From the NCBI GenBank assembly GCA_017381865.1, contig JAFOBJ010000011.1, forward strand, positions 1 to 33,845: a stretch of DNA of 33,845 nucleotides. The letters are read 5' to 3'. A model generated the notes under the pieces. That model had not been told where the DNA came from, did no database searches, and saw only the letters and a list, made by a program, of their open reading frames with translations. The first letter of the stretch is position 1, and every line of letters starts with the position of its first letter. This document shows, piece after piece, positions 5,256 through 31,648 of the stretch. This DNA comes from Bacteroidales bacterium (GTDB lineage Bacteria > Bacteroidota > Bacteroidia > Bacteroidales > F082). A program made the position numbers and the translations under genes.

Positions 5256-5256
5256 T

Positions 5257-8404: not shown

Positions 8405-8522
8405 GGGATTTTTTTGGGAGTTGGGACTTGGGACTTGGGAGTTGGGACTTGGGAGTTGGGATTTGGGTCTCCCATGTCCCATATCCCATTCCCCATGTCC
8501 CATTTCCCAACTCCCATTTCCC
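8405..8522. repeat. Opposed G-rich and C-rich heptamer arrays
   Basis: Seven or more GGGACTT/GGGAGTT/GGGATTT units are followed at once by about eight CCCATGT/CCCATTT/CCCAACT units, all with period 7. The halves can pair as a long imperfect hairpin, and either strand has regularly spaced GGG tracts that could form a G-quadruplex. It ends 2 bp from the stop codon of the four-helix-bundle gene. Confidence 0.75.
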
Positions 8523-8922: not shown

Positions 8923-8966
8923 AATCTTAATTTTTGGTTAATAATTTTTTGGTTAATAAATCAAAT

Positions 8967-9014
8967 CCCATCCCCTATTCCCTATTCCCTATTCCCTATT
9001 CCCGAATCCCGTTC
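8967..9014. repeat. Heptamer array CTATTCC
   Basis: Consecutive CTATTCC units flanked by CCCATCC and CCGAATC/CCGTTCC variants. It separates the four-helix-bundle gene start from the end of the DUF2027/Smr gene. Confidence 0.65.
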
Positions 9015-11192: not shown

Positions 11193-11252
11193 TTATGCAT
11201 TATGAATTGAAAAAAATCTTTAGTCTTTAGTCATTAGCCTTTAGCCTTTTTC
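11193..11252. repeat. Heptamer arrays upstream of the radical SAM gene
   Basis: An AATTATGCATTATGAATT segment and then CTTTAGT, CATTAGC and CTTTAGC units. The array ends at the -7 box at 11254, so repeat words occupy the position of the -33 element. Confidence 0.6.
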
Positions 11253-11253
11253 C

Positions 11254-11261
11254 TATTTTTG
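11254..11261 (+). promoter_or_regulatory. -7 box of the radical SAM gene
   Basis: TATTTTTG, 13 bp before ATG 11275. The leader would be very short. Confidence 0.55.
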
Positions 11262-12246: not shown

Positions 12247-12789
12247 ATGTACATAAAATCCAACGACTTATTCAAAGAAACTCATCCTGAGAAGATTTAC
12301 GATAATATTTCAAAACCTATTATCATTGCGGATCATCTTCTGACGCCAGATAATATGGGTTCTATGATAAGATTAGCTGATAATATCGGAGCGTCGGAGA
12401 TGTGTTTCCTGGGCATCGCTCCTACTCATAGTCTTTCAAAAGTGAAAAAAGCAGCAGCAAGCAGCAAAGACAACATTAAATGGTATTATACAGAAGATGA
12501 CGATTTACGAAAAATTGTCGGTGATAAAAAGATTGTCGCTATAGAAACATCTGACGACGCGGAATGCATTTACGATTGTGAATTGCCTAGCGACATCGCT
12601 TTCATCGTCGGAAATGAAAGTCGAGGCATAAGAGAAGAGATTTTACAGCAATGCGACAAGATCGTCTACATTCCTGTTCCTGGACCGACTCGTTCGTTAA
12701 ATGTCAGCCACGCTGCCGCAGTAGCCTTGTTCGAATGGCAGAGACAGATGTTGAACTTTGAACTAAAAACTAAGAACGAAGAACTTTGA
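12247..12789 (+). CDS. SpoU/TrmH-family RNA 2'-O-methyltransferase
   Basis: A 180-residue SPOUT-fold enzyme using S-adenosylmethionine to methylate RNA ribose. Motif 1 is NMGSMIRLADN (residues 36-46), motif 2 FIVGNESRGI, and motif 3 IPVPGPTRSLNVSHAAAVALFE, forming the trefoil knot. The target tRNA or rRNA site is not predictable. The natural end is near FEWQRQM; the final LNFELKTKNEEL is written by heptamer words (GAACTTT, GAACTAA, GAACGAA), a repeat-derived tail. It follows the radical SAM gene by 6 bp, and a bidirectional hairpin terminator lies at 12857. Confidence 0.9.
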   Translation: MYIKSNDLFKETHPEKIYDNISKPIIIADHLLTPDNMGSMIRLADNIGASEMCFLGIAPTHSLSKVKKAAASSKDNIKWYYTEDDDLRKIVGDKKIVAIETSDDAECIYDCELPSDIAFIVGNESRGIREEILQQCDKIVYIPVPGPTRSLNVSHAAAVALFEWQRQMLNFELKTKNEEL

Positions 12790-12860
12790 ACTTTTTTTGC
12801 TATGAGCAATGAGTTTTGAGCTGTGAGCAGTTTGATAATAAACTATTGACTGTTATAAAA
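12752..12860. repeat. Heptamer arrays at the SpoU gene 3' end
   Basis: GAACTTT/GAACTAA/GAACGAA words cross the stop codon at 12789. They change to GCTATGA, GCAATGA, GTTTTGA and GCTGTGA units, then to ACTATTGACTGTTA just before the terminator. Confidence 0.6.
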
Positions 12861-14906: not shown

Positions 14907-14998
14907 TAATATATTTTCAAGTCAATAAGTTTTCAAAAAACACTCATAGACTTATAGACTCATAGACTTTAAAACTTTCAACTTCAACACAATTACAA

Positions 14999-15697
14999 AT
15001 GACTAAATATCAACATATTTTCTTCGATTTAGATAATACATTATGGGATTTCGACAAAAGTTCTCTCATGGCTTTTGACAAAATATACGATATTTTCAAC
15101 CTTATTAATTATGGTATTCCTAGCGCAAGTCATTTTCATCACACTTATTTTGAACACAACAACAGACTTTGGGAGCTTTATCGTCAAGGGAAAATTGACA
15201 AAGATTTTTTGAAAACAGAACGTTTTCGACTTCCTTTGAAAGATTATGGTGTGATTGATGAAAAACTTGCCATCGACCTCGGAGAAAGCTACACCGATTA
15301 CGCAGCTCGTCTTGTCGCACTAGTGCCTCACACTTTGGAAGTTCTTAATTATCTTAAAGAGAAAAATTACAAAATCCATCTCATAACCAACGGATTCCTT
15401 GAAGTTCAATCTATTAAGATGCAAGCATCGGGATTAGACAAACTGATTGACAAATCGTTCGTTTCTGAAGTCGTTGGATTTAAGAAACCTGATTATAGGA
15501 TTTTTCATTATGCGATGGAAAATGTTGGAGCAACAATAGAAAACAGCGTAATGATTGGCGACGATTTATCCGTCGACATTATTCCAGCAAAAGAAATCGG
15601 CATGACACACATTTATTTCAACAGAAAAAAAATATCCCATAACGAAAAACTCGATTATGAGATATATGATTTGATTGAAATCTGTGACATTATTTAA
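14999..15697 (+). CDS. YjjG-family HAD nucleotidase
   Basis: A 232-residue HAD-superfamily phosphatase. HAD motif I is DLDNTLWDF with nucleophile Asp10 and acid/base Asp12, motif II is LITNG, motif III is the Lys of FKKPD, and motif IV is MIGDDLSVDI. The length and WDFDKSS opening match the YjjG (TIGR02254) family, which dephosphorylates non-canonical pyrimidine nucleoside monophosphates. It is a single gene with an octamer array on each side. Confidence 0.88.
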   Translation: MTKYQHIFFDLDNTLWDFDKSSLMAFDKIYDIFNLINYGIPSASHFHHTYFEHNNRLWELYRQGKIDKDFLKTERFRLPLKDYGVIDEKLAIDLGESYTDYAARLVALVPHTLEVLNYLKEKNYKIHLITNGFLEVQSIKMQASGLDKLIDKSFVSEVVGFKKPDYRIFHYAMENVGATIENSVMIGDDLSVDIIPAKEIGMTHIYFNRKKISHNEKLDYEIYDLIEICDII

Positions 15698-15698
15698 G

Positions 15699-15766
15699 TC
15701 ACCGAGTCTCCAAGTCACCAAGTTCTTTAATCTTGGTGTCCTATTGTCTTGTTGTCTTATTGTCTC
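15699..15766. repeat. Octamer array at the psd 3' end
   Basis: AGTCACCG, AGTCTCCA and AGTCACCA units, then TCCTATTG, TCTTGTTG, TCTTATTG and TCTCAAAT. The period is 8. It covers the stop codon of psd (15757-15759) and its last two codons. Confidence 0.65.
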
Positions 15767-16419
15767 AAATAAGCAAGTACGCTTATCTTTCCTTTTACCT
15801 TATCGCCTATTTTGACATTTATTTCTGAGTCTATCGGGAGGAAGAAATCCACTCTTGAGCCGAAGCGAATAAGACCGAACTCCTCGCCTACTTTTGCAGG
15901 AGAACCTTTATCGACGAAGCAAACGATGCGACGAGCCATCACGCCTGCTATCTGACGGAAAAGCACTTCTCTTCCTTGTTCATCTTTAACGACCAATGTG
16001 TTACGTTCGTTAAGCTCTGACGACTTTGGATTTATGGCGAACAATTTCTTTCCTGGATGATATTTATAATAACTCACCACGCCATTGATTGGGAACCAGT
16101 TAACGTGAACGTTATATGCCGACATAAATATTGAAATCTGTATTCTCTTGTCATGGAAATATTCCTTTTCTTCCACTTCTTCAATCACGACGACTTCGCC
16201 ATCAGCTGCAGAAACGACAGCATTTTCTTCTATCGTAGTGACTCTGTTTGTAGGAACTCTGAAGAAAGTGAAGCTCCAGAAAACGATTACGGAACAAGCT
16301 ACCGTCATAAATATTTGCAATAATTTAACTGGAACGAAAAGCCAGAACGCCGCTACTATTATAGCAGCGATTAATATTACTGTAGCAATAACTCCGTAAC
16401 CTTTTTTATGTATGTACAT
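15757..16419 (-). CDS. psd: Phosphatidylserine decarboxylase proenzyme
   Basis: A 220-residue protein of the short (PSD-A-like) type that turns phosphatidylserine into phosphatidylethanolamine. Two hydrophobic segments lie within residues 8-55 and anchor it to the inner membrane. The core includes YNVHVNWFPINGVV and ends with the RFGSR motif, where Gly187-Ser188 would self-cleave to create the pyruvoyl group. The start lies 10 bp after the cdsA stop, so both are co-transcribed. The last codons RQ and the stop lie in an octamer array. Confidence 0.92.
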   Translation of the reverse strand: MYIHKKGYGVIATVILIAAIIVAAFWLFVPVKLLQIFMTVACSVIVFWSFTFFRVPTNRVTTIEENAVVSAADGEVVVIEEVEEKEYFHDKRIQISIFMSAYNVHVNWFPINGVVSYYKYHPGKKLFAINPKSSELNERNTLVVKDEQGREVLFRQIAGVMARRIVCFVDKGSPAKVGEEFGLIRFGSRVDFFLPIDSEINVKIGDKVKGKISVLAYLRQ

Positions 16420-17345: not shown

Positions 17346-18248
17346 TTAAAAATTAATAACAACTCCAAGTCCGTAATTCGTTGCTATCGGTTGTATTTCA
17401 ACGCTTGATATATTACCTATTTTCTCGTTAAATTTAACGACGCCGCGACCTATGAAATAACCTAAAGCTGCACCGACAATTACGTCAGAAGCCCAATGTT
17501 CCTTACTAACGACACGACCTAAAGATGTCATCGTCGCCAAGGAATATGAAACGAGTCCGACCCATTTTTTCTCTGGATAAAATCCTGCGACTGTCGTTGC
17601 TAAGGCAAAAGAACGCATCGCATGACCCGAAGGGAACGAAGTGCTTTTGAAAGATTTGAACGGTCCCAACCAAGTTTGACCATTGACCATTGACTGTTGA
17701 CCATTGGCTATTGGCTGTTGGCTGTTGATCATTGATTGTTGACTATTGACTTCCGAAGGGCGGAGACGGCATGAGAGGACTTTCAGTCCAGCTGAGGCGA
17801 CTTCGGCATAGACGAAACTTTGCAATGCCGCCAGCGACATGTTTTTAAGGCGGCAGTCTTCACCTACAGCACCTATAGTGTAAGTCAATGCTAATGAAGG
17901 AAGTATGAAATATTCTTCTCCAAAAACATCAGTACATTTTGAAGCAGTATTCCATTTTTCATTTTCAAACGTGCCGTCAACAAAATCATATATTTCATCA
18001 TCATAAACGAACGCCAATGTGGTTACAGCAGCAACGCCACCAAATACAGTCCAATCTTTCCAATCATAATGCAGAGGCTGCGACAAAACCGTCAATCCTG
18101 AGTTCCAGTATGATTTGAGATAAGTTGCTGAGTTGTTGAGTTGCCGAGTTGCTGAGTCGATTTCAACAGAAGCCGTATCCACAGAAACATTCTGCGAACA
18201 AAGCACTCCAGAAAACAACAAACAAAATACTAATAAAAACCTTCTCAT
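17346..18248 (-). CDS. PAP2-family phosphatase with repeat-encoded inserts
   Basis: A 300-residue protein with a signal peptide (MRRFLLVFCLLFSGVLCSQ), so probably periplasmic or membrane-facing. The three PAP2 motifs are present: K156-x6-RP164, PSGH at 206-209, and R245-x5-H251-x3-D255. Substrates are probably lipid phosphates or pyrophosphates such as undecaprenyl pyrophosphate. Two segments are written by tandem repeat DNA: residues about 31-45 (SATRQLNNSATYLK, 8-residue period) and about 167-191 between the first and second motifs (VNSQQSM/INSQQPI/ANGQQSM, 7-residue period). The insert lies in a loop, so activity could survive. Confidence 0.9.
   Translation of the reverse strand: MRRFLLVFCLLFSGVLCSQNVSVDTASVEIDSATRQLNNSATYLKSYWNSGLTVLSQPLHYDWKDWTVFGGVAAVTTLAFVYDDEIYDFVDGTFENEKWNTASKCTDVFGEEYFILPSLALTYTIGAVGEDCRLKNMSLAALQSFVYAEVASAGLKVLSCRLRPSEVNSQQSMINSQQPIANGQQSMVNGQTWLGPFKSFKSTSFPSGHAMRSFALATTVAGFYPEKKWVGLVSYSLATMTSLGRVVSKEHWASDVIVGAALGYFIGRGVVKFNEKIGNISSVEIQPIATNYGLGVVINF
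17676..17752. repeat. Eleven-unit heptamer array inside the PAP2 gene
   Basis: Exactly 77 bp: TTGACCA twice, TTGACTG, TTGACCA, TTGGCTA, TTGGCTG twice, TTGATCA, TTGATTG, TTGACTA, TTGACTT. It is read on the minus strand as part of the protein. The period is unbroken; the units differ at positions 4, 6 and 7. Confidence 0.85.
18124..18159. repeat. Octamer array inside the PAP2 gene 5' region
   Basis: GTTGCTGA, GTTGTTGA, GTTGCCGA and GTTGCTGA units. Read on the minus strand it encodes the SATRQLNNSATY segment. Confidence 0.75.
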
Positions 18249-18286
18249 AAAACAACTTAGTAACTCAGTAACTTAGTAACTCACTT
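18246..18286. repeat. Octamer array between MazG stop and PAP2 start
   Basis: AACTTAGT, AACTCAGT, AACTTAGT and AACTCACT units. The array supplies the last codons (VSY) and stop of MazG at 18273 and reaches the start of the PAP2 gene at 18248. Confidence 0.7.
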
Positions 18287-19112
18287 TCTTCGCTTCCTCC
18301 CAAAGTTCATTCATCTCATCGAGGCTCATATCTACGAGCGACTTGCCGTTTTCCCTCGCTTTTTCTTCGACATAATTGAAACGGTTTCTGAATTTCTTGT
18401 TCGCCACTTCAAGAGCGTCCATCGGGTTGACTTTTATGAAACGAGAATAATTCACGAGAGCAAACATTAGGTCACCGAACTCTTCAGTGATACGCTCCTT
18501 GTTTCCATCTCCCGTTCCCATTTCTCGTTCCCTGATTTCATCTTTCAGCTCTCTTATCTCCTCCTCGACTTTTTCCCAGACCTGCTCTTTGTTTTCCCAG
18601 TCGAATCCCACGCCCGCAGCTTTTTCCTGCATGCGATAAGCCTTCACGAGTTCTGGCAATGCATTAGGCACGCCGCCTAAAACACTTCTATTCTGTTCTT
18701 TTGTAAGTTTTATCTTTTCCCAATTATCAGCGACTTCCTCTGCACTTTTCACAGAAGTGTCGCCAAAGACGTGAGGATGACGAATTATCAATTTCTCGCA
18801 GATTCCATTGATAACATCGTCGATGGTAAATAAATTTCGGTCTTGTGCGATGCGAGAATAAAAAACGATATGCATGATAATATCGCCGAGTTCTTTCCTA
18901 ACATCTTGATAATCTTCATCAACAATAGCCTGACTTAATTCAAAAACCTCTTCTATCGTAAGATGACGCAGACTTTCAATAGTTTGTTTTCTATCCCAAG
19001 GACATTCCACTCTGAGTCTGTCCATTATATCTAACAATCGTTGGAATGCTTCCATTGAACTTTGACTATTGACCACTGTTTTTTGGCTATTTGTTTCCAT
19101 ATCTTTATTCAT
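18273..19112 (-). CDS. mazG: MazG nucleoside triphosphate pyrophosphohydrolase
   Basis: A 279-residue enzyme that hydrolyses (d)NTPs to NMP and pyrophosphate, clearing abnormal nucleotides. It is a two-domain MazG with the EEVFE and RKELGD metal-binding motifs in the first domain and EFGDLMFALVNYSR in the second. I chose ATG 19112 because a TATTTTTG box at 19126-19133 lies inside the longer frame that begins at 19154. Heptamer arrays encode N-terminal NSQKTVVNSQSSME (before the conserved FQRLLDIMDRLR) and internal REREMGTGDGNKER. The C-terminal VSY comes from an octamer array. PAP2 follows 24 bp on. Confidence 0.9.
   Translation of the reverse strand: MNKDMETNSQKTVVNSQSSMEAFQRLLDIMDRLRVECPWDRKQTIESLRHLTIEEVFELSQAIVDEDYQDVRKELGDIIMHIVFYSRIAQDRNLFTIDDVINGICEKLIIRHPHVFGDTSVKSAEEVADNWEKIKLTKEQNRSVLGGVPNALPELVKAYRMQEKAAGVGFDWENKEQVWEKVEEEIRELKDEIREREMGTGDGNKERITEEFGDLMFALVNYSRFIKVNPMDALEVANKKFRNRFNYVEEKARENGKSLVDMSLDEMNELWEEAKKVSY
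18500..18533. repeat. Heptamer-like array inside mazG
   Basis: CCATCTC CCGTTCC CATTTCT CGTTCCC words, the same vocabulary as the C-rich array at 8470-8522. Read on the minus strand it encodes REREMGTGDGNKE. Confidence 0.5.
19055..19096. repeat. Heptamer array in the mazG 5' region
   Basis: TTGAACT, TTGACTA, TTGACCA, CTGTTTT, TTGGCTA, TTTGTTT: six 7-bp units. It encodes most of the N-terminal residues ahead of the conserved core. Confidence 0.7.
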
Positions 19113-19125
19113 ATCATTTTTTTTG

Positions 19126-19133
19126 CAAAAATA
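19126..19133 (-). promoter_or_regulatory. -7 box of mazG
   Basis: TATTTTTG on the minus strand, 13 bp before ATG 19112. It argues against the start at 19154. Confidence 0.55.
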
Positions 19134-19141
19134 AAAAAATA

Positions 19142-19252
19142 AGTCAACGGTCAACAGCTAACAGACTTTTTGAACTAAGAACATTGAGCTTTGAACTAAG
19201 AACTTTGAATTGTTCGGTCACTGAGCTCACAGCTCATTGCCCATAGCTGATT
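19142..19252. repeat. Degenerate heptamer region between mazG and the acyloxyacyl hydrolase
   Basis: GTCAACG, GTCAACA, GCTAACA units, then TTGAACTAAGAAC words twice, then GCTCACA, GCTCATT and GCCCATA units. No gene. Confidence 0.5.
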
Positions 19253-19305
19253 ATTTTAAAAAAAAATAATCGTTAAAAACATATTAAAATTCCCGTAATT
19301 ATTAC

Positions 19306-19313
19306 TACTTTTG
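19306..19313 (+). promoter_or_regulatory. -7 box adjoining the start codon (probable leaderless gene)
   Basis: TACTTTTG ends 4 bp before ATG 19318. With a start site a few bases downstream, the transcript would begin at or next to the ATG, leaving no room for a ribosome binding site. Confidence 0.5.
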
Positions 19314-19317
19314 CAAT

Positions 19318-20472
19318 ATGAAAAAGGACAAATTATTATTGATTATTTTATGCTTCATTTTTTCATTTAATTTTAGTAATGAAGCATTTGCCAATGGCAA
19401 GAAAGAAGGTGAAAATAAGTCACCTCTCATGGAGAATTTCATGAAAAACATGGAAGTCGATTTAAGACTCAGCTATGGTTTTTACATGCACCATCACTAC
19501 GAAATGGAAGGCTACAGAGCACACTTCCCAATGTTTGAGTTGTCATTACAGAAACAGACTTACGGCACATCTTATTGGCAGCATTGCTTCAATTATCCAG
19601 CCGTCGGTGTTACAGCATTCTACTCTCCTATGGGAAACATTGACGTTTTGGGACAAGCATTCGCCATTTATCCTTACATCTACTTTCCATTCATTAAAGG
19701 AAATACGAATTTCGGCATCCGCTTCGGTTTAGGTCTCGGCTATCTTACTGAAAGTTACGATCACATAGAAAATCCATACAACATATGTATCGGCTCTGCT
19801 TTAAATGCCGCAGCAAGTATTTCTTTCGACATCTCTCATCGTTTCACCGACAGATTTAAAATGTCACTCTTCGGCGGTTTGCAACATTTTTCAAATGGCT
19901 GTACTTCAGAACCTAACAAAGGAACCAACGTACTTAGAGCTGGTCTCAGCGCAGCTTATATGATCAACGAACCTGTCGAACGTATCGACCCTTCACAACT
20001 GACAGAAAAGAGAACCATCGAATATCTCAAAGAATTCAGACCTGAGCTTTACGCTGGATTATCATACGGTTACAAAAGAATCGACTATAACCAAAAAGAC
20101 TATACCACAGTGTTAGACTTTGAAGTTTATGTCATGGAACAACTCACTAGACTCTTCAAATTAGGTCTCGGCTTCGACTTGATTTACGACAGAACCAACA
20201 TACTTCGTAACATTAAAAGTGGCGAGACATGGACAACAGCTCAAATCATGAATCCAGGCGCACATGTCGTCGGTGAATTAGTCATGGGCAAAACATCTTT
20301 CATGTTTGTCGTTGGTAAACACTTCGGCAAATACATGCACACCGAAAAGAATTATCAGAGATTAGGTCTCAAGATAGATTTCCACAAACACATCTACGGT
20401 AAGGTCACTCTTACAGTACACCAATGGCACATTGCCGACTTTCTTAGCTTTGGTGTAGGTTTTAAACTATAA
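19318..20472 (+). CDS. Acyloxyacyl hydrolase-like outer membrane protein (PagL-related)
   Basis: A 384-residue outer membrane beta-barrel protein. The signal peptide ends near EAFA (residue 25). The barrel shows alternating aromatic strands and the family stretch FGIRFGLGLGYLTESYD, then IGSALNAAASISFD. The catalytic pair of PagL-type lipid A deacylases is seen in QHFSNG (His190, Ser192), followed by PNKGTN. The second half (about 230-384) repeats barrel-like strands and is longer than PagL itself. It probably removes an acyl chain from lipid A. It forms an operon with the DUF2807 lipoprotein 17 bp downstream. Confidence 0.82.
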   Translation: MKKDKLLLIILCFIFSFNFSNEAFANGKKEGENKSPLMENFMKNMEVDLRLSYGFYMHHHYEMEGYRAHFPMFELSLQKQTYGTSYWQHCFNYPAVGVTAFYSPMGNIDVLGQAFAIYPYIYFPFIKGNTNFGIRFGLGLGYLTESYDHIENPYNICIGSALNAAASISFDISHRFTDRFKMSLFGGLQHFSNGCTSEPNKGTNVLRAGLSAAYMINEPVERIDPSQLTEKRTIEYLKEFRPELYAGLSYGYKRIDYNQKDYTTVLDFEVYVMEQLTRLFKLGLGFDLIYDRTNILRNIKSGETWTTAQIMNPGAHVVGELVMGKTSFMFVVGKHFGKYMHTEKNYQRLGLKIDFHKHIYGKVTLTVHQWHIADFLSFGVGFKL

Positions 20473-20489
20473 TTATAATTCAAGATATT

Positions 20490-21365
20490 ATGAGAAAAAG
20501 TAGAAGAATTATGAGAAAAGAAAGAAGAATTGCTAGAAGAAACGAGAGAAGAAACAATCGAAAAAACAATAGCAAGCTCAACAAAATGTTTAATGCCATC
20601 CGTCAGTTGTCTGAAATCAACCGTTCATTATACATTATATTAATTGCGCTGTTCGTTTCATCATGCGAACCTGCACCATTGACAAACGGAAAACCAGTAA
20701 CAGAAACTCGTTGGTTTGACGAAGAAATCACAGCCATACATTTTTATAATGACATCAACGTGACTTTGGTAGAAGCCGACACTTTCAGAATTGAGGTGAC
20801 AACAGGCGAAAACCTCATGGAAAAAATCACAAGCACTGTTGAAAACGGAACTTTATATTTAAAGAATGAAAACATCCGTTATTGGTTAAGAAGCTACGAC
20901 TATCCTTTGGAAGTCAAGGTTTATCATAACAGCATCACACGCGTTAATTACGAATCATGGGGCGACTTAAAATCTGAAGGTTATATCAGCCAAGACACAT
21001 TAAACAGATTCGATTTGATTGTATACCACGGTTCTGGCCACATCGACATCGATATTAACTGTAAGACTTTGAACGTAGAAACACACGACGGAACTGCAAA
21101 AGTTACATTATCAGGATCTTCAGATTACACCGAAATATATCATAATGCAAGAAACAATATCTATGCGAAAGAATTGGTTTCTAAAGACGCAAGAGCACGC
21201 GCATATTACGAAGGTTCGATTTACGTCAACAGCACCAATAATTTAGAAGCTTTAGTAAACGACTACGGCAGCGTTTATTACAACAGAGAAGTCAAGAATT
21301 TAAATGCTACAATAACCGAGACGCCAGTTCCAAATTCAAGAGGCGTTATTGAGCCGTACAATTAA
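20490..21365 (+). CDS. DUF2807 (GIN domain) lipoprotein
   Basis: A 291-residue protein with the head GIN/DUF2807 right-handed beta-helix fold (WFDEEITAIHFYNDINVTLV, then repeated short strands to the end), a family annotated as putative adhesins. A lipobox-like LFVSSC at about residues 54-59 marks it as a lipoprotein. The N-region is extraordinary: about 32 residues made almost only of Arg, Lys, Asn and Glu before the hydrophobic segment, far longer than a normal signal n-region. Met33 is a possible alternative start giving a more ordinary signal. It follows the acyloxyacyl hydrolase gene by 17 bp and a hairpin terminator lies at 21414. Confidence 0.8.
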   Translation: MRKSRRIMRKERRIARRNERRNNRKNNSKLNKMFNAIRQLSEINRSLYIILIALFVSSCEPAPLTNGKPVTETRWFDEEITAIHFYNDINVTLVEADTFRIEVTTGENLMEKITSTVENGTLYLKNENIRYWLRSYDYPLEVKVYHNSITRVNYESWGDLKSEGYISQDTLNRFDLIVYHGSGHIDIDINCKTLNVETHDGTAKVTLSGSSDYTEIYHNARNNIYAKELVSKDARARAYYEGSIYVNSTNNLEALVNDYGSVYYNREVKNLNATITETPVPNSRGVIEPYN

Positions 21366-21396
21366 GACCACAAGACTACAAGACTACAAGACACCA
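21363..21396. repeat. Octamer array AAGACTAC
   Basis: AAGACCAC, AAGACTAC, AAGACTAC and AAGACACC units directly after the DUF2807 gene stop codon. Confidence 0.65.
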
Positions 21397-21413
21397 AGTT
21401 ATAGGGGCTGCTT

Positions 21414-21437
21414 TGAATGAAAGGCAGCTCTTTTTTT
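21414..21437 (+). terminator. Terminator of the acyloxyacyl hydrolase-DUF2807 operon
   Basis: The arms GGGGCTGC-TTT and AAAGGCAGCTC flank a short GAATG loop and are followed by seven T residues. One base is bulged. Confidence 0.7.
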
Positions 21438-21525
21438 AAACCAAGAACTAAGAACTAAGGCTTTTGAACTTTTTTCCAGCACCAATGGTTCAAAGGCCAA
21501 CAGCTTTAGTTTTTGGTTCGATTTT

Positions 21526-21610
21526 GCGTTAGGGATTGGAGCGGCATCCTTTTGAAGCGCAGCGGAAAAAGATATAGCGGAAAGCCCGACGGCGATAGCC
21601 GGAACGCCCT
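21526..21610. ncRNA. Dispersed structured element, copy 2 (Flavo-1-like)
   Basis: The same ends as the element at 790-941 (GCGTTAGGGATTGGAGCGGC then ATCC; AAAGATATAGCGGAAAGCCC then GACGGC and GCCGGAACGCCC) with a short GAAGCGCAGCGG middle. GGAT/ATCC, GGC/GCC and GCGTT/AACGC can pair. It sits in a 470-bp intergenic gap after a terminator. Strand and function are unknown. Confidence 0.5.
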
Positions 21611-21613
21611 AAA

Positions 21614-21709
21614 ACAATTCATAATGCATAATGCATAATGCATAATTAAAGTTTAATGGTTAATGGTTGTTGAATTAACTTTGCGTTACGTTGCGACTTT
21701 GCGAGAGGA
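21614..21709. repeat. Heptamer array plus CGCAAAG repeat (copy 2)
   Basis: AATTCAT and repeated AATGCAT units are followed by GTTTAATGGTTAATGGTTG words. Then TTTGCGTTACGTTGCGACTT and TGCGAG, the reverse of the repeat at 692 and 31514. Confidence 0.55.
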
Positions 21710-21747
21710 ACACTAATAACTTCGTGAGTTTTCGTAGATATAAAGAA

Positions 21748-21797
21748 AGAGACGTGTCAACGTGTGTTTATTTTTAAGGTAACGTTGACGCGTCTCT
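21748..21797. repeat. GAGACG hairpin, copy 1
   Basis: AGAGACGTGTCAACGT pairs with ACGTTGACGCGTCTCT over 16 bp with one G-T pair. The copy at 31290-31338 has two compensatory changes and the same wobble position. An octamer array follows up to the proS stop. Confidence 0.65.
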
Positions 21798-21799
21798 AC

Positions 21800-21834
21800 T
21801 TGTTGTCTTGTAGTCTTATAGACTTGCAGACTTT
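21800..21834. repeat. Octamer array next to the proS stop
   Basis: TTGTTGTC, TTGTAGTC, TTATAGAC, TTGCAGAC: 8-bp period. The proS stop at 21836 is 1 bp away. Confidence 0.6.
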
Positions 21835-21835
21835 A

Positions 21836-23308
21836 TCAATAAGCTCTTGCGAATATCACGCGGCGTTTTGAAGGCTGACCTGAGTAGATGCATTTGCCAT
21901 CTTCGTAGTCGTCGTCCAAAGGAATGCAGCGGATAGTAGCTTTTGTTTCTTCTTTAATCTTTTGTTCTGTCTCTGGAGTGCCGTCCCAGTGAGCGTAGAC
22001 GAACATGCTGTTTTCGATTTGAGTCTTGAAGTCTTCCCAAGTATCGACTTTAACAGTTCTTGACTGACGGAAGTCGAGAGCTTTTTGGAAGATATTGTTT
22101 TGGATTTCTTCGAGAAGATTTGTGATGTAATCTTCGATGCCGTCGATTGTGACAGAGCTCTTTTCGAGAGTGTCGCGGCGAGCGATTTCAACAGAGTTGT
22201 TTTCCACATCGCGAGGACCAGCAGCGATACGAACTGGCACGCCTTTGAGTTCCCATTCAGCGAATTTGAATCCAGGTTTCTGAGTGTCGCGGTCGTCGAA
22301 TTTCACGCGCATTCTTCTAGCTTCGAGGCGTTTCTTCAAGTCATCGCAGTAGTTGAGAACTGTTTCTTTTTGTTCGTCTGTCTTGTAGATAGGAACGATA
22401 ACCACTTCGATAGGAGCGATTCTTGGAGGAAGCACGAGGCCGTTATCATCTGAGTGAGCCATGATGAGAGCGCCGATCAAACGAGTTGAAACGCCCCATG
22501 AAGTAGCCCAAACATATTCCAATTTATTTTCTTTATTAAGATATTTAACATCGAAAGCCTTGGCGAAGTTCTGTGCGAGGAAGTGAGAAGTACCAGCTTG
22601 GAGAGCCTTGCCGTCTTGCATCATAGCCTCGATACAGAATGTCTCTTCTGCGCCAGCGAAACGTTCGTTAGCAGATTTGATACCGCGGATAACAGGAAGA
22701 GCCATGTATTTCTCAGCGAATTCTGAATAGACGTCGAGCATTTTACGAGCTTCTGCCAAAGCCTCTTCGCGTGTAGCGTGAGCTGTGTGACCTTCTTGCC
22801 ACAAGAACTCAGCAGTGCGGAGGAAAGAACGGGTACGCATTTCCCAGCGGACCACGTTAGCCCATTGGTTGCACAATATTGGAAGGTCGCGGTAACTCTT
22901 GATCCAGTTGCGATATGTATCCCAAATGATTGTCTCTGAAGTTGGACGAACGATGAGTTCTTCTTCGAGTCTTGCGTCTGGGTCGACGACGACGCCAGCA
23001 CCATTAGGGTCGTTTTTGAGACGGTAGTGAGTTACGACAGCACATTCTTTAGCGAAGCCTTCTACGTGGCTAGCTTCCTTGCTAAAGAAACTCTTAGGGA
23101 TAAACAATGGGAAATACGCATTGACGTGACCTGTGTCTTTAAACATTTTATCGAGAGCATCTTGCATGAACTCCCAAATTGCATAACCGTAAGGTTTGAT
23201 AACCATACAACCTCTAACTGCAGAATTTTCTGCCAAATCAGCTTTAGAAACAAGATCATTATACCATTGGGAATAATTTTCTTGACGAGATGTTAAATCT
23301 TTTGCCAT
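21836..23308 (-). CDS. proS: Prolyl-tRNA synthetase (archaeal/eukaryotic-like type)
   Basis: A 490-residue class II synthetase that charges tRNA-Pro. Motif 2 region [20 protein letters not shown] and motif 3 region [20 protein letters not shown] are intact, as is RPTSETIIW. The anticodon-binding domain spans about 300-400. The C-terminal zinc-type domain (about 410-490, ending RVIFARAY) is of the ProS type without the INS editing domain. Length and domain order match the Bacteroidota enzyme. A TATTTTTG box lies at 23347-23354. Confidence 0.96.
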
Positions 23309-23346
23309 CTTTATTATTGGTATAGTATTTGTATATTTTTAAAGTG

Positions 23347-23354
23347 CAAAAATA
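23347..23354 (-). promoter_or_regulatory. -7 box of proS
   Basis: TATTTTTG on the minus strand, 38 bp before ATG 23308. The divergent lipoprotein gene begins 41 bp to the right. Confidence 0.5.
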
Positions 23355-23394
23355 AAAAAAAATTGTACACATTTATAATTTAAACACTATAAAA

Positions 23395-24681
23395 ATGGAA
23401 CGCTTTAATTTTTTAATCATCGCTTTAGGAATTCTGTTAACATCTTGTTCTTCAAGTAGTAATGTCGTAAAAGACGATGCGTATTATTCTCCTTTCGACA
23501 AAAATGCCAAAGACGGCAAGGAATTAGCCGTATCTGAAAACGGCACTTTCAACACTTCAAGCATCAGCAGCAATTCTCAATATGATTATCAAGCATATTA
23601 CAGCGAAAACACAACGCAAAAACCAAAAGCTGAGCCAACATACGAAAAAACGGAAACAGTGACCGACACAAACGGCGTTGTTTACACCAGTACAGAAATA
23701 TATTACGACGATAGCTACAAAAACGCATCCAATTATGGTTATCTCGAAGATAATTACGATTACTATTACGATGATGACGACGATGACTGGAATACAAGCG
23801 TTTATGTAGGAATAGGTTATCCTTATGGAAGTTATTGGGGATTCAATTACGGATACCCTTATTATTATCCATCTTATTACTACCCTTCCTATTATTATAA
23901 TTGGCATTACAACTGGTGGTGGACTCCTTATTATTATAGTCCATATTACCATCCACATTATTGCTATCCACACTATCATTATCCATTATATCCGCCACAC
24001 AAGCCAGGTCATGGCGGACACAAGCCACATCCAGGTGGAGGCCTCGCCCCTGCTCCAACCAACCCAAGACCAAACGGTCAAGGCGGATTACATGTCGCTG
24101 GCAACAACAGCAGACCTGCATCAGCAGGATTAGCTCCAGCTTCTTCATCAAGACCTTCAAGCGCTTCTAGAAGCAACGATAGACCATCAAGCTCACGCAC
24201 TTCAACAACAGTGCGTCCTTCAAGCAGCTCGCGTCCTTCAAGCGCAACAAGACCTTCAAGCAGCAGTTCATCTGCAAGACAATCATCTTCCGAACGTAAA
24301 TCATACGCTCCAGCAAGTAGCAACAGACAAGTACGTTCAAGTTCAGAATATGTGAGACCAAGTTCTAGTTCTTCATCAAACAGAAACAATACAAGTGTCA
24401 ACAGACCAAGCAGTTCTTCTTCAAGCAGAAGTAGTAGCGTAAGCAGACCAAGCAGTTCTTCTTCAAACAGAAGTAGCAGCGTAAGCAGACCTAGCAGTTC
24501 TTCTTCAAACAGAAGCAGCAGCGTAAGCAGACCAAGCAGTTCTTCTTCAAGCAGAAGTAGCAGCGTAAGCAGACCAAGCAGTTCTTCTTCAAACAGAAGT
24601 AGCGGAAGCTTCAACACTGGCTCTTCAAGCAGAAGCAGCGGAAGCATGGGCGGCGCAAGAGTTAGCGGCGGAAGACGTTAA
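23395..24681 (+). CDS. Lipoprotein with Tyr/His/Pro region and Ser/Arg tandem repeats
   Basis: A 428-residue surface-type lipoprotein. The signal MERFNFLIIALGILLTSC ends in a lipobox with Cys18. An acidic linker (DDDDDD around residue 130) leads into a Tyr/Trp/His/Pro-rich segment (about 140-205), then a Gly/His/Pro stretch, and a low-complexity Ser/Arg/Pro tail (about 240-428) with five 14-residue units of the form RPSSSSSNRSSSVS. The tail is highly basic and disordered and could bind polyanions or cell wall. No enzyme motif. It is 12 bp before the OMPP1/FadL-like gene, so one operon. Confidence 0.8.
   Translation: MERFNFLIIALGILLTSCSSSSNVVKDDAYYSPFDKNAKDGKELAVSENGTFNTSSISSNSQYDYQAYYSENTTQKPKAEPTYEKTETVTDTNGVVYTSTEIYYDDSYKNASNYGYLEDNYDYYYDDDDDDWNTSVYVGIGYPYGSYWGFNYGYPYYYPSYYYPSYYYNWHYNWWWTPYYYSPYYHPHYCYPHYHYPLYPPHKPGHGGHKPHPGGGLAPAPTNPRPNGQGGLHVAGNNSRPASAGLAPASSSRPSSASRSNDRPSSSRTSTTVRPSSSSRPSSATRPSSSSSSARQSSSERKSYAPASSNRQVRSSSEYVRPSSSSSSNRNNTSVNRPSSSSSSRSSSVSRPSSSSSNRSSSVSRPSSSSSNRSSSVSRPSSSSSSRSSSVSRPSSSSSNRSSGSFNTGSSSRSSGSMGGARVSGGRR
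24403..24604. repeat. 42-bp tandem repeat inside the lipoprotein gene
   Basis: Four full copies and a partial fifth, starting at 24403, 24445, 24487, 24529 and 24571. Each encodes RPSSSSSNRSSSVS, with N/S exchange at position 8. A more diverged copy starts at 24355. The near-identity suggests recent expansion and length variability. Confidence 0.8.
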
Positions 24682-24693
24682 AAACCAACAGTT

Positions 24694-26148
24694 ATGAAAA
24701 AGATTTTTTTAACATTATTAGTCTTAGTGCCTTTCTTCGTCAAAGGCCAAAGCATTTATGATGCCTACAATTTATCGGCATCTTATTATCAAGGCACCGC
24801 AAAAAGCATGGCGATGGGAAATGCGATGGGCGCAGTCGGACAAGACTTCTCCTCCATCAGCATCAACCCTGCTGGATTGGGATTGTTCAGAAAGCCAACA
24901 TTCACGTTCACGCCTTCCATCAACACCATATTCACCAATTCCTATGCCAACGGAGGAAAACCGGGTTTTGATTCGAAAGCCAATTTGTCCATTAACAACA
25001 TCGGATATGTAGGCGTCAACAAAAGTGGCGACAACACTGTCACATGGGCCATCGGCATGAACAGAACCAACAACTTAAACAGCAAAACATTCTTTGACGG
25101 ATACAACTATAACAATTCATTAATTGACGCTTATTTTGCAGAAATAATAGCCAACGATATATATGACGAAAAAGAATTAGAATATTATTCTCCTACTTAT
25201 ATATATCCTTTATGGCAAACTTATCTCATCAACTTTGAACAAGATGGAACTTTAAGCACGCCTGTTCCTGCCGGAAATTTACGACAATTAAGAGACGTCA
25301 ATTCCTGGGGCGGAACCAACGAATGGACAGCGAGTTCTAGCATCAACTTCAACGACAAGCTTTTCTTCGGTGTTTCCATCAACTTACCTTACATATCAAG
25401 CAAAAGAGTTAGCGATTATACAGAAACATTCAAACACGAATCAGAAGAATATTTCTGGTCACAAGAAGAAATTCTAGCCACTACAGGATGGGGATTTAAC
25501 AGCAAATTAGGTCTCATCGCCTACCCTTGCCGATGGCTACGCGTCGGAGCAGCTTTCCATACGCCATCTGTTTATAATCTAACTGACAGCTGGAGAACGA
25601 AAACCACTTCAACCCTCGATTCTGGCAGTTTCGAATATGTCGTGCCAACATCTTATTTCAGCTATTCACTAGTAACGCCATGGAGAGCCAACGCCAGTGC
25701 AGCATTCATTTTCGGCAATTTCGGAATGATTACCGCAGACTTTGAATATGTAGATTACAGAAAAATAAAACTATCTGATTCAGAATTCGATTACAGCGAG
25801 TATAATAAATCTATATCAAACACATTCAAACCAACGATGAACTTCAGATTAGGAACCGAATGGCGTTACCAAAACTATTGTTTCAGAGGTGGTTACTCAT
25901 TCTACGGAAGTCCTTATGGCATAACAAAACTCGATTATATGAGAGACGCTATATCATGCGGCTTCGGTTACACACATCATTTCTTGACGATAGACTTCGC
26001 TTATGTCTATATGCTACAAAATCATAATTACAACTTATATTCTCAATACACAAATTATTACGACCAAGTTGTTGAGAATAATATAGAAGTTTATGAAACA
26101 ACAAAATTGCACAGCATCGTCGTTACATTAAGATTAAAATTATATTAA
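24694..26148 (+). CDS. OMPP1/FadL-family outer membrane transport protein
   Basis: A 484-residue outer membrane beta-barrel. The signal peptide ends at FFVKGQ. The N-terminal stretch has the OMPP1/FadL hallmark: AMGNAMGAVGQDFSSISINP followed by AGLGLFR, which in FadL forms the plug and NPA motif for hydrophobic ligands. Alternating beta strands continue to the terminal LHSIVVTLRLKLY with its aromatic end. Bacteroidota versions are sometimes called hemin receptors without proof. It is co-transcribed with the upstream Ser/Arg-repeat lipoprotein and ends at a bidirectional terminator. Confidence 0.83.
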   Translation: MKKIFLTLLVLVPFFVKGQSIYDAYNLSASYYQGTAKSMAMGNAMGAVGQDFSSISINPAGLGLFRKPTFTFTPSINTIFTNSYANGGKPGFDSKANLSINNIGYVGVNKSGDNTVTWAIGMNRTNNLNSKTFFDGYNYNNSLIDAYFAEIIANDIYDEKELEYYSPTYIYPLWQTYLINFEQDGTLSTPVPAGNLRQLRDVNSWGGTNEWTASSSINFNDKLFFGVSINLPYISSKRVSDYTETFKHESEEYFWSQEEILATTGWGFNSKLGLIAYPCRWLRVGAAFHTPSVYNLTDSWRTKTTSTLDSGSFEYVVPTSYFSYSLVTPWRANASAAFIFGNFGMITADFEYVDYRKIKLSDSEFDYSEYNKSISNTFKPTMNFRLGTEWRYQNYCFRGGYSFYGSPYGITKLDYMRDAISCGFGYTHHFLTIDFAYVYMLQNHNYNLYSQYTNYYDQVVENNIEVYETTKLHSIVVTLRLKLY

Positions 26149-26180
26149 AAAAGGCCAGATAAACTTTATGGTTTCAAACA

Positions 26181-26213
26181 AAAAAGGTTGCCAAGTAATT
26201 GACAACCTTTTCT
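26181..26213. terminator. Bidirectional terminator
   Basis: The arms AAAAAGGTTG and CAACCTTTTCTTT flank a CCAAGTAATTGA loop. It lies between the convergent OMPP1-like and zinc-ribbon genes. Confidence 0.75.
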
Positions 26214-26232
26214 TTATATATAATACTTAAAA

Positions 26233-27024
26233 TCAATCTTGTGATTCGTTGTGATACATATCAACGATATCTTGGTCGATTAAGATACGGCCGCAATATT
26301 CACAAACGATGATTTTCTTGTGCATACGAATATCAAGTTGGTGTTGTGGAGGGATTTTGTTGTAGCAACCGCCACAAGCGTCGCGTTCAATCTTAACGAC
26401 TGCCAAACCATTGCGAGCATTTTTTCTGATGCGTTTGTAAGCTGTAAGAAGACGTTCTTCAATAAGTTGTTCACTTTCTTGTGAGCGAACCATAAGTTCT
26501 TGTTCTTCTTTTTCAGTTTCTTCAACGATTGATGACAACTCACCTTTCTTGAGTTCTAAGTCGCCTTTACGTTCTTCTAGGCGAGCATTTGTTTCGCTCA
26601 AAGATATTTTCAACATCTCTGATTTCTTTGTAAAATCATTGATACGTTTTTCGCAAAGTTGAATATCTAATGATTGATATTCAATTTCTTTTGTCAATGA
26701 TTCATACTCACGATTGTTGCGAACATTATTTTGTTGTTCTTCGTATTTTTTAATGAGAGATGTAGCTTCTTTAATTTTGTTTTTATAGTCAGCGATGTCT
26801 TTAGCGAATTTTTCCAATTCCTCATTGAATTTAGTGATACGAGTTTCCATACCAGCTATTTCGTCTTCTAAATCTTGAACTTCAAGAGGCAATTCACCGC
26901 GGATGATACGAATTTTATCTATTTTAGAATCAACCTGTTGTAAAGTATACAATTCAATAAGTTTTCTTTCAACGGTAATTTCTTGTTCTTCTGCGTTGTG
27001 ATTTTTTAAGTTATTGTCTTCCAT
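26233..27024 (-). CDS. C4-type zinc-ribbon coiled-coil protein
   Basis: A 263-residue protein. Residues about 20-190 form a long antiparallel coiled coil (many heptad Glu/Lys/Leu segments). The C-terminus has a four-cysteine zinc ribbon, CGGCYNKI and then CEYCGRIL about 20 residues on. This matches the CT398/YbgI-linked family thought to bind nucleic acid or protein partners. It lies 21 bp downstream of NIF3, a conserved pairing in Bacteroidota and other bacteria. Confidence 0.87.
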   Translation of the reverse strand: MEDNNLKNHNAEEQEITVERKLIELYTLQQVDSKIDKIRIIRGELPLEVQDLEDEIAGMETRITKFNEELEKFAKDIADYKNKIKEATSLIKKYEEQQNNVRNNREYESLTKEIEYQSLDIQLCEKRINDFTKKSEMLKISLSETNARLEERKGDLELKKGELSSIVEETEKEEQELMVRSQESEQLIEERLLTAYKRIRKNARNGLAVVKIERDACGGCYNKIPPQHQLDIRMHKKIIVCEYCGRILIDQDIVDMYHNESQD

Positions 27025-27045
27025 ATATTTATAAAAAATTTAATA

Positions 27046-27858
27046 TTAAACAAAATAATTAACGGAGTTCGTATTCACCCTCGAAATTTGAACTGCAAAT
27101 TTAGGATTTTTTTTGAGAATAATATCAGCAAATAATTGTTTTGTGAATTGTTCTGTTTCAAAATGTCCCGCATCAACGATAAGTATTTCATTATCAGCGT
27201 CAAAGAAATCATGATATTTTAAATCAGCAGTAACATAAACATCTGCTCCACAGCGTTTTGCGTCATTTATCAAGAAAGCTCCAGAACCTCCGCAAATTGC
27301 GACTTTTCTTATAGTTTTATTCTGCAATTCAGAATGGCGAATTGCTCTGACATTTAATTTTTCCTTAATAATTTTTAAGAAATCATTCTCCAACATTTCG
27401 TTTTCAAGAACGCCAATCATTCCACTTCCAACTTGAGTTGCGGAGTTGTCGAGTTGCTGAGTTGCTGAAAAGTTTGGATGCAATATGTTTAAGTTTTTCA
27501 AGCCGAGTTGGTTTGCAAGAACACGATTCACGCCATAGAAACTATTGTCGATATTAGTATGCATCGCAGCGATAGAAATGTCGTGTTTGATTGCTTTAGT
27601 GATAATTCTTCCAGTCGTGTCGTCGACAAGAATATTTTTCAATCCTTTAAAAATCAAAGGGTGATGGCTTATCACCAGATGAAATGAATTTTCTATAGCC
27701 TCGTCAATGACTTTTTCCGTAAGATCCAATGTCAGCAACACTTTATCAACCAAAGCGTTAGCATCACCAACAAGAAGTCCAGAGTTATCATAGCTCTCCT
27801 GCCAATGAATCGGCGCAACTTCTGTTATATAAGACAAAATTTCAGAGACTTTATTCAT
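27046..27858 (-). CDS. Nif3-like dinuclear metal centre protein
   Basis: A 270-residue NIF3/YbgI family protein (formerly GTP cyclohydrolase I type 2). Metal ligands are visible in SHHPLIFKG, HTNID and DAGHFETE. The opening VSEILSYITEVAPIHWQESYDNSGLLVGD is typical and fixes the start at 27858; the in-frame ATG at 27894 adds only a lysine-rich stretch overlapping a TATTTTAG promoter-like box. An octamer array encodes SATQQLDNSATQV in the linker before GSGMIGVL. It lacks the extra PII-like domain of longer members. The precise function is unsettled in the family. Confidence 0.9.
   Translation of the reverse strand: MNKVSEILSYITEVAPIHWQESYDNSGLLVGDANALVDKVLLTLDLTEKVIDEAIENSFHLVISHHPLIFKGLKNILVDDTTGRIITKAIKHDISIAAMHTNIDNSFYGVNRVLANQLGLKNLNILHPNFSATQQLDNSATQVGSGMIGVLENEMLENDFLKIIKEKLNVRAIRHSELQNKTIRKVAICGGSGAFLINDAKRCGADVYVTADLKYHDFFDADNEILIVDAGHFETEQFTKQLFADIILKKNPKFAVQISRVNTNSVNYFV
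27435..27468. repeat. Octamer array inside the NIF3 gene
   Basis: GAGTTGCG, GAGTTGTC, GAGTTGCT, GAGTTGCT, GA. It is read on the minus strand as an 8-residue-period peptide, SATQQLDN/SATQV. The same words encode SATRQLNNSAT in the PAP2 gene. Confidence 0.8.
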
Positions 27859-27900
27859 TTTTATTTTTTTGCTAAAATACGATTTTTTTGTCATTTATAG

Positions 27901-29019: not shown

Positions 29020-29778
29020 ATGACAGAGAAGAAGATTTATTTCATCACCGACCTTCATTTGGGCGTACCGACACTTGAAGACTCGCATCAGAGAGAATTA
29101 AAACTGGTTCGTTTTTTAGATTCGATAAAAGACGAGGCCGAGGCGATTTTCCTCATGGGCGACCTCTTTGACTTCTGGTTTGAATATAAAACAGTAATTC
29201 CTCGCGGATATGTGCGTCTGCTCGGAAAACTATCGCAGCTCATCGACGCAGGAATTCCTATCCATTTATTCGCTGGCAACCACGACCTCTGGACTTTCGA
29301 CTATCTCCAGAAAGAAGTCGGAATCATATTACATCGCGAGCCAATGATAATGACACTGAAAAACAAGACTTTCTTCCTTGTACACGGCGACGGCAGAGGC
29401 CCTGGCGACAAAGGATACAAATTCTTAAAAAAAGTCTTTGAATGTAAGTTCAACCAATTCCTCTTCAGATGGTTTCACCCTGATTTAGGAATCGGACTTG
29501 CCTTGAAATGGTCTCATAATCATAGAGCAAAGAAATTGAAGAAAGAAGCCGAAGGCAATTATTATTCCATCGTTGAAGACACAATGCTTTATAAATATGC
29601 GCAAGAGTGCGTAAAAGAAAACCCAAACATCGATTATCTAGTATTCGGACATCAGCACAAACCGATGCAATATAAAGTCGATAATGGTGCGACAGTGACG
29701 GTAGTCGGCAATTGGATTCGGGATTTCTCTTATGCTGTGTTTGACGGAAAGGATATTAAGTTAGGAGTTAGGAGTTAA
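29020..29778 (+). CDS. lpxH: UDP-2,3-diacylglucosamine diphosphatase
   Basis: A 252-residue calcineurin-like phosphoesterase that cleaves UDP-2,3-diacylglucosamine to lipid X and UMP. The metal-binding motifs are in order: DLH (Asp11, His13), GDLFDFW, GNHDLW, VHGDG and FGHQHKP. The natural end is near FDGKDIKL; the final GVRS and stop are written by TTAGGAG heptamers that continue past the gene. It pairs with lpxK, 21 bp upstream. Confidence 0.92.
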   Translation: MTEKKIYFITDLHLGVPTLEDSHQRELKLVRFLDSIKDEAEAIFLMGDLFDFWFEYKTVIPRGYVRLLGKLSQLIDAGIPIHLFAGNHDLWTFDYLQKEVGIILHREPMIMTLKNKTFFLVHGDGRGPGDKGYKFLKKVFECKFNQFLFRWFHPDLGIGLALKWSHNHRAKKLKKEAEGNYYSIVEDTMLYKYAQECVKENPNIDYLVFGHQHKPMQYKVDNGATVTVVGNWIRDFSYAVFDGKDIKLGVRS

Positions 29779-29791
29779 GAGTTAGGAGTTA
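29761..29791. repeat. Heptamer array TTAGGAG across the lpxH stop
   Basis: TTAGGAG, TTAGGAG, TTAAGAG, TTAGGAG, TT. The in-frame TAA of lpxH is inside the array. Confidence 0.7.
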
Positions 29792-29820
29792 TAATAAAGA
29801 TAAAGAAACAACGTTACCAT

Positions 29821-31390: not shown

Positions 31391-31648
31391 ACGATTTTAA
31401 TCCGCGAAACTGCACGAAATATCACTAAATGATTTCGTGAAAGATTAGTGTTTTTTTAGCGGACATAAAAACGTCCACGAATCTTCACGAATTCGCGCGA
31501 ATTATAAGTTTTCCTCTCGCAAAGTCGCAAAGGTGCGCAAAGTTTATACAACATCCTCAACTCCTAACTCCTAACTAACAAAGCGTTGCCTTATCCTATA
31601 GTTTCGCCCTAATTATGCATTATGAATTATGCATTATGAATTACAAAA
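31391..31648. other. Gene-free intergenic stretch with several repeats
   Basis: It holds CACGAAAT/ATTTCGTG arms (31414-31440), a CACGAATCTTCACGAATTCG segment, the third CGCAAAG repeat (31514-31545), AACTCCT heptamers (31559-31577) and ATTATGCATTATGAATT heptamers (31611-31645). I see no gene. Confidence 0.5.

Follow-up and report, generated by a model that had tools for sequence, protein, structure and literature searches.

The DNA analysed here (the window) is a 33,845-bp contig, JAFOBJ010000011.1, of the 2.12-Mb genome of a gut Bacteroidales bacterium (99 contigs, 79% complete; hereafter the source genome), and our subject is a set of degenerate tandem arrays of 7- and 8-bp units that stand between its genes and also in frame inside them, among others in those for a PAP2 superfamily protein and a DUF34/NIF3 protein. 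The explanation that we favour, with a probability of about 50%, is that these arrays are built from a limited vocabulary of words and are governed jointly by genome-wide exchange of units, slippage and purifying selection, the copies inside genes being passengers. Arrays would grow and shrink by slipped-strand synthesis, units would pass from array to array throughout the genome through template switching at short homologies or a comparable process acting in trans, gene-breaking outcomes would be eliminated by purifying selection, and in-gene copies would be tolerated without fulfilling any needed function. Between short-homology template switching and a dedicated writer, the former appears the most likely. 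The overall pattern fits a genome-wide pool and a piecemeal rewriting of arrays, with selection deciding where they stand; no mechanism need be assumed to steer clear of harmful sites by itself, as purifying selection suffices.

Abundance, vocabulary and shared sites of the arrays

An earlier reading of the window from its letters and open reading frames (the sequence-only reading) had claimed tandem repeats of 7 and 8 bp, and these proved real: both periods are extreme, relative to simulations, in the window and in a wider sample of the source genome. In the window, 20-bp stretches that match themselves at 17 or more places numbered 145 at a shift of 7 and 25 at a shift of 8, vs none in 20 order-2 Markov simulations; over shifts of 2 to 30, only multiples of 7 and 8 stood out, with single stretches at 15 and 26. 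Our strict caller, which calls arrays of periods 7 and 8 only (other periods were compared separately), identified 19 arrays covering 890 bp. The wider sample of 393,845 bp, made up of the window and 18 stretches of 20 kb drawn from contigs known to contain matches, and therefore biased in density, held 4,223 bp of period-7 and 1,743 bp of period-8 stretches, vs none of either in a single third-order simulation; among short periods, 6 (313 vs 26 simulated) and 9 (295 vs 0 simulated) came next. Period-6 arrays of the GACTCT type, seen in several of these stretches (L080, L087 and L091), are probably ordinary coding repeats. The sample yielded 145 arrays (102 of period 7 and 43 of period 8), or one per 2.7 kb; as it represents 19% of the genome, several hundred arrays would be present genome-wide if the rest is alike.

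With genes called by a home-made hexamer caller, 75 of these arrays fall between genes, 38 overlap with the end of a gene and 32 have at least 80% of their length within genes, in DNA that is 85% coding. The 32 in-gene arrays are spread over 23 of the 307 called genes, which include those for PriA, Lnt, 4-alpha-glucanotransferase, nitrilase, a THUMP-like domain protein and patatin; 12 of them lie within the outermost tenth of the called gene at either end, and some arrays near called-gene ends may lie outside the true protein. About one called gene in thirteen holds an array segment, including those for PriA and Lnt, so that the process leaves its mark on the proteome and can mislead annotation and searches for homologues. 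For comparison, arrays were called on 707,350 bp of the about 2.7-Mb genome of G009, a sister species of the same genus and the closest relative among 39 searched, in pieces chosen by contig number and size and hence biased in density; this gave 154 arrays, 31 of them inside called genes. Genes with two arrays numbered 9 in the source genome vs 2.0 expected (maximum of 2,000 simulations, 7), and 4 in the sister species vs 1.2 expected (maximum in simulations, 6).

The vocabulary of the arrays is small. The 102 heptamer arrays of the source genome use 42 words of 1,172 possible, vs 94.8 distinct words expected from random seeds, and the 43 octamer arrays use 22, vs 42.6 expected; the commonest words in the sample include AATTATG (19 arrays), AACTCCT (9) and AACAGTC (6). 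So small a shared vocabulary argues against chance seeds followed by local slippage. Between arrays of the same family, shared exact runs were on average no longer than those of random unit draws in five of six families; a family's arrays thus mostly look like independent draws from a common unit pool, and such mostly independent unit orders argue against the copying of whole arrays. Word likeness is flat with distance beyond 300 bp (0.12-0.16 in every distance class for the heptamers of the source genome), which argues against region-bound exchange; in the sister species, arrays separated by less than 300 bp resemble each other more (0.50), which is what arms would show. The heptamer vocabulary differs between the sister species, the probability of word identity being 0.023 between the two and 0.055 and 0.062 within each.

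Array sites are shown to be common to the two species above expectation, and the words found there are often different. Among 69 conserved junctions, arrays were present in both species at 12, in the source genome only at 9, in the sister species only at 2 and in neither at 46 (Fisher, P = 2e-6). Restricting the analysis to junctions with a spacer of at least 60 bp in the source genome gave 10, 7, 1 and 14, respectively (P = 0.003), a test affected by the fact that arrays themselves lengthen spacers. At 8 of the 12 junctions with arrays in both species, no common word was found within one mismatch.

The one word scanned over all genomes, the octamer AACTYAGY (4.5 units), was found in 93 stretches, 80 of which were listed, with titles from many phyla. 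The matches listed include Treponema vincentii (complete genome), Exilibacterium, Planctomycetota, Thermoanaerobaculia, Pseudomonas and others (L168-L247). Its occurrence in a complete genome and in many taxa argues against such arrays being no more than an artefact of assembly in metagenome-derived genomes. We dropped this word as proof of transfer. Among 296 genomes of the same phylum, the source genome included, one heptamer pattern was rare (the source genome and 2 others), as was one octamer pattern (the source genome and 1 other); since the tested patterns occur in so few of them, we claim no common vocabulary for the phylum.

Arrays in genes and elsewhere in the window

Five in-gene sites had been named in the sequence-only reading. 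Three of them, two in the PAP2 gene and one in the NIF3 gene, are strong arrays, while the two in mazG fail the strict caller; the peptide readings quoted for them were correct. In the PAP2 superfamily gene (17346..18248, minus strand; profile match to PF01569), a minus-strand heptamer array of the GTCAAYR family at 17676..17751 (period-7 match 0.78) encodes VNSQQSMINSQQPIANGQQSMVNGQ; the orthologue in the sister species holds a heptamer array of the same family, and that of the source genome is 42 nt, or six 7-mers, longer. An octamer array of the AACTCAGC family at 18121..18159 (minus strand; period-8 match 0.81), in the region coding for the N-terminus, encodes IDSATRQLNNSATY, and no array was called in the orthologue of the sister species. 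PAP2 was matched in 4 of the 39 relatives, closely in the sister species only. A further octamer array, AACTTAGT, is located at 18251..18286, at the end of mazG and the start of PAP2, and is by eye inverted to the array at 18121. The mazG gene itself (18273..19154, minus strand; profile match to PF03819) carries two weak heptamer-like stretches on the minus strand, one at its N-terminus (19055..19096; period-7 match 0.54, reached by 0.33% of 29,563 coding stretches) and one inside the gene (18500..18533; 0.48, reached by 1.6%). The mazG gene of the sister species shows a 27-nt gap over the first stretch and one of 15 nt that overlaps the second or lies next to it; since the gaps fall at or beside them, the two stretches may be decayed arrays.

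The DUF34/NIF3 gene (27046..27894, minus strand; profile match to PF01784) contains an octamer array of the AACTCAGC family at 27435..27468 (minus strand; period-8 match 0.85), which encodes SATQQLDNSATQ and forms a 24-nt insertion, that is, three extra octamers in frame relative to the sister species. In the alignment, the loop with its fixed flanks measures 41 residues in the source genome vs 33-35 in 17 single-domain congeners (the sister species among them), and 137 in the long-form relatives G012, G014 and G022. The extra domain of the latter, of about 100 residues (loci L066-L068), sits exactly at the position of the octamer array and represents a gain or loss within one genus. Three solved relatives (2nyd, 3lnl and 2gx8) match the query in two stretches; in the chains of 2nyd and 3lnl, residue 132 corresponds to query residue 142 and residue 239 to query residue 154. 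As these matches split around the array, it sits at a known insertion point between domains; loop positions were taken from solved relatives for NIF3 and from alignment only for the other proteins.

In the wider sample, the nitrilase (CN_hydrolase) loop, measured from ten residues before GSF to past NTLV, was found to have (i) 35-36 residues and no insert in 13 congeners, (ii) 53 residues with an AACTCAGC octamer array in the source genome, (iii) 48 residues with an AACAAGAC octamer array in the sister species, and (iv) 59 residues with an AACAGTC heptamer array in RGIG4154. The last is a Bacteroidales bacterium from roe deer colon (JAFTUF01), whose best matches to 28 proteins of the source genome have a median identity of 76%; its loci were picked by an octamer pattern, so that densities and octamer sharing there are biased.

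Over 115 reciprocal best protein pairs of the two sister species (identity above 45%, median 86.5%), in-gene arrays were called in the source genome only in 10 cases, in the sister species only in 6 and in both in 4. The alignments show most of the compared in-gene segments to be lineage-specific insertions or changes in unit number. The prediction that such segments would be absent or variable in unit number in orthologues agrees with the differences in NIF3 (24 nt), PAP2 (42 nt) and the lengths of the nitrilase loop, and orthologues carrying the same ancestral peptide, which had been named as refuting, did not appear for these three proteins. In phase-variation simple repeats, a change in unit number switches the reading frame; the two differences observed here at the level of species (24 and 42 nt) keep it. 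The openness of the sense strand over in-gene arrays (60 of 63) was dropped as evidence, given that the calling of open reading frames itself requires an open frame.

Elsewhere in the window, heptamer arrays are located at 173..213 (ATTGTTA), 559..592 (AATKCAT), 5255..5341 (AATTATG, intergenic, in two inverted arms), 8411..8503 (TTGGGAC, then TCCCATN), 8965..9013 (CCCTATT), 11215..11258 (TCTTTAG, intergenic, with other words at the junction of the sister species), 12751..12794 (TTGAACT, at a gene 3' end), 29756..29794 (AGTTAGG, at a gene 3' end, where the sister species has AATGAGG) and 31610..31647 (AATTATG). Octamer arrays are found at 14938..14970 (ACTCATAG, intergenic; none called in the sister species), at 15696..15724 (AAGTCACC) and 15736..15767 (AAGACAAT) in the same convergent junction, at 21361..21401 (AAGACTAC, in a convergent junction) and at 21798..21833, the last being by eye inverted to the array at 21361. 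The AATTATG array at 21612..21672 ends a dispersed element of about 125 bp (21525-21650), which resembles miniature inverted-repeat transposable elements (MITE) or repetitive extragenic palindromes (REP) and recurs in six further stretches of the source genome with 88-98% identity over 85-126 bp. At 24402-24603, 42-bp in-frame repeats lie in the gene for a Ser/Arg-rich protein and resemble an ordinary coding repeat, not the 7- and 8-bp kind.

Competing explanations

Several results weigh against the reading that we favour. Octamer words are largely common to the two sister species (word identity 0.079 between them, 0.063 within the source genome and 0.113 within the sister species). Three of the four in-gene sites filled in both (PAP2, glucanotransferase and patatin) keep one word family, nitrilase being the one where it differs, and sites filled in both could be independent hits on tolerant spots. 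The class of arrays present in the source genome only depends on the caller, the patatin N-terminus of the sister species having a similar degenerate stretch, and one of the pairs is only 48% identical. Among AATTATG arrays, unit order is shared more than random draws predict (mean run 16.8 vs 14.2), the longest AACAGTC run (27) exceeds all 20 simulated maxima (25), and some arrays may be copies. Units are more alike within than between arrays in several families, though not in all (0.16 vs 0.03 for AACAGTC), so that local duplication contributes. Finally, template switching is a step that we infer rather than observe, and its fork-local form does not predict exchange across the genome.

A further claim is that array sites remain stable addresses while a trans-acting process rewrites their content, wholesale and throughout the genome, from a lineage's pool of 7- and 8-letter words. 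We regard it as doubtful, and slightly more so than at first, because octamer words are largely common to the two species and three of the four shared in-gene sites hold the same family. If true, tandem repeats dispersed over a bacterial genome would evolve in concert, with protein loops serving as recording sites, and a loop that carries an octamer array in one species could carry a heptamer array in another. The swap of words between sister species turns an old oddity, why heptamers and who writes them, into a testable question.

It is unlikely, in our judgement, that arrays arose by local slippage only, growing in place from chance seeds with 7 bp as the polymerase contact length, a proposal of Mrazek 2007 as reported in PMC4679880. 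The same paper, citing Mrazek 2007, reports that most of the genomes rich in 5-11 nt repeats have heptamers as their most frequent class, and the greater likeness of units within arrays in several families, as well as a PAP2 difference made of whole units, point in this direction; however, 42 words for 102 arrays, vs 94.8 expected, form too small a vocabulary, the words of the sister species differ at 8 of 12 shared junctions, and by eye the empty NIF3 site contains no exact unit.

Nor do we think it likely that the arrays have a selected function at gene ends, by forming the arms of long imperfect hairpins with a terminator or insulator role, with in-gene copies as by-products. Arrays are commonest at convergent junctions, both in the source genome (convergent, 49% of 39; tandem, 27% of 208; divergent, 17% of 41) and in the sister species (28% of 65, 17% of 325 and 12% of 67, respectively), and many consist of two arms that are reverse complements of each other. 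Inverted-repeat scores are higher at array junctions than at junctions without arrays or in chimeric controls: a score of at least 14 was reached in the source genome by 41% of 71, 24% of 103 and 7%, respectively (60% of 65, 31% of 184 and 12% in the sister species), and a score of at least 18 by 15%, 8% and 4% (37%, 8% and 6%). The inverted-arm signal is thus clear in the sister species and modest in the source genome. At two junctions (L081 junctions 7 and 12), both arms have swapped their word together and a strong hairpin is kept; at L081 junction 2, the sister species has a terminator-like hairpin where the source genome has an array hairpin. Against such a function, the source genome gives only 15% vs 8% at the higher score, more than half of its array junctions are without a clear hairpin, at most of the 12 shared junctions at least one of the two species has a low score, and the preference for 3' ends may be promoter avoidance. 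The scores derive from a split-point test that replaced two others. A fine segmentation of arrays for the orientation of neighbours (5 inverted and 10 direct in the source genome, 8 and 24 in the sister species) was judged unusable, as degenerate pairs were mostly classed as 'other' (38 of 53 and 35 of 69), split pieces of one array were scored as direct and the sort order kept periods apart. A first flank alignment, at a score of 16, found inverted partners for 11 of 113 and 30 of 123 arrays not inside genes and direct partners for about 4 and 9; it was weaker since arms were often merged in one call.

Carriage of the arrays by small dispersed elements, MITE- or REP-like, which then decay in place is quite improbable. 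The dispersed element at 21525-21650 does end in an AATTATG array, arrays alternate by eye with palindromic elements at some junctions, and the excess of shared unit order in AATTATG and the longest AACAGTC run are of the kind that copying would leave, but in five of six families the mean sharing of unit order does not exceed that of independent draws.

Highly improbable, in turn, is a templated writing in trans, whereby an RNA-templated, telomerase-like polymerase would add words at breaks or ends. The limited word pool, the mostly independent draws and the lack of a distance effect would suit it, and the DRT10 system makes tandem-repeat cDNA (PMC12632851). However, no match to the reverse transcriptase domain RVT_1 (PF00078) was found in the 79%-complete source genome (14 of 29 relatives searched had one, the sister species included), and the many word families would need equally many templates. 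In addition, we know of no route of insertion.

That the in-gene segments are ancestral protein sequence, periodic by chance, can practically be discarded: arrays do stand at the same place in PAP2, 4-alpha-glucanotransferase, patatin and nitrilase of both species, but 16 of 20 compared in-gene arrays were called in one species only, and the short loops of congeners already refute it for NIF3 and nitrilase.

Comparison with known repeat systems

The short tandemly repeated repetitive (STRR) sequences of cyanobacteria are short tandem repeats made of heptamers, and are known with a unit length of 7 only. They were reportedly described in heterocyst-forming cyanobacteria by Mazel in 1990, and a 1997 article by Vioque is said, by its title, to concern STRR inside an RNase P RNA gene. 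Like them, the present arrays consist of tandem heptanucleotide units, several per array, with a word common to many dispersed and mostly intergenic loci; unlike them, 43 of the 145 arrays of the source genome have period 8, and octamers, in-frame protein loops, other words and another phylum are involved. The Rickettsia palindromic elements are inserted in frame in conserved genes and tolerated there, as are the present arrays in NIF3, nitrilase and PriA; those elements are recognisable copies of longer palindromic elements, whereas our arrays are mostly not copies of one another, AATTATG exceeding independent draws.

The sequence-only reading knew of no description of such intrusion into genes in Bacteroidales. 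That it is undescribed finds no support: direct repeats of the heptamer TAACTGA were reported from Beggiatoaceae, Cyanobacteria and five Bacteroidetes, in one of which a set lies inside the purC gene near its end, and 11 open reading frames of a Beggiatoaceae genome carry reverse-orientation sets, mainly at the periphery or ends of the protein (MacGregor 2015, PMC4679880). The reversed control of our heptamer pattern, by chance TAACTGA-like, occurred in 15 of our 296 same-phylum genomes, and the published heptamer is probably present in more than five species of the phylum. Both systems place heptamers at many sites, mostly intergenic, with some in open reading frames and mostly at protein ends, and both are patchy across phyla, an array being absent from close relatives at the same junction (PMC4679880). 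The TAACTGA system has one word, which stands near start codons in its main genome and whose related heptamers are rarely repeated; the present arrays, by contrast, use many words and include octamers, favour the 3' ends of genes, swap words at fixed sites and stand in internal loops of conserved enzymes. TAACTGA is absent from the word list of the source genome, whose arrays are commonest at convergent junctions and not next to start codons.

The GGGNATC heptamer arrays of Xanthomonas and Nostoc (Rehm 2015, PMC4692102) are likewise dispersed, mostly non-coding, often near stop codons and variable in length at the same site; they differ in being G-rich and quadruplex-forming, of one word type and under-represented in genes. 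DRT10, whose cDNA has 9-nt and other unit lengths, shares with our arrays the bacterial synthesis of short tandem-repeat DNA of variable unit length (PMC12632851); it is a defence system producing cDNA, the accessible sections of its description mention no chromosomal arrays, and the 79%-complete source genome gave no RVT_1 match. No account of octamer arrays of the present type, large word vocabularies or word swapping in conserved loops was found among open PMC papers, a search that left the subscription literature mostly outside. Taken together, dispersed heptamer arrays, some of them inside genes, were known before, and the octamers, the large vocabulary and the swapping of words at fixed sites appear to be new.

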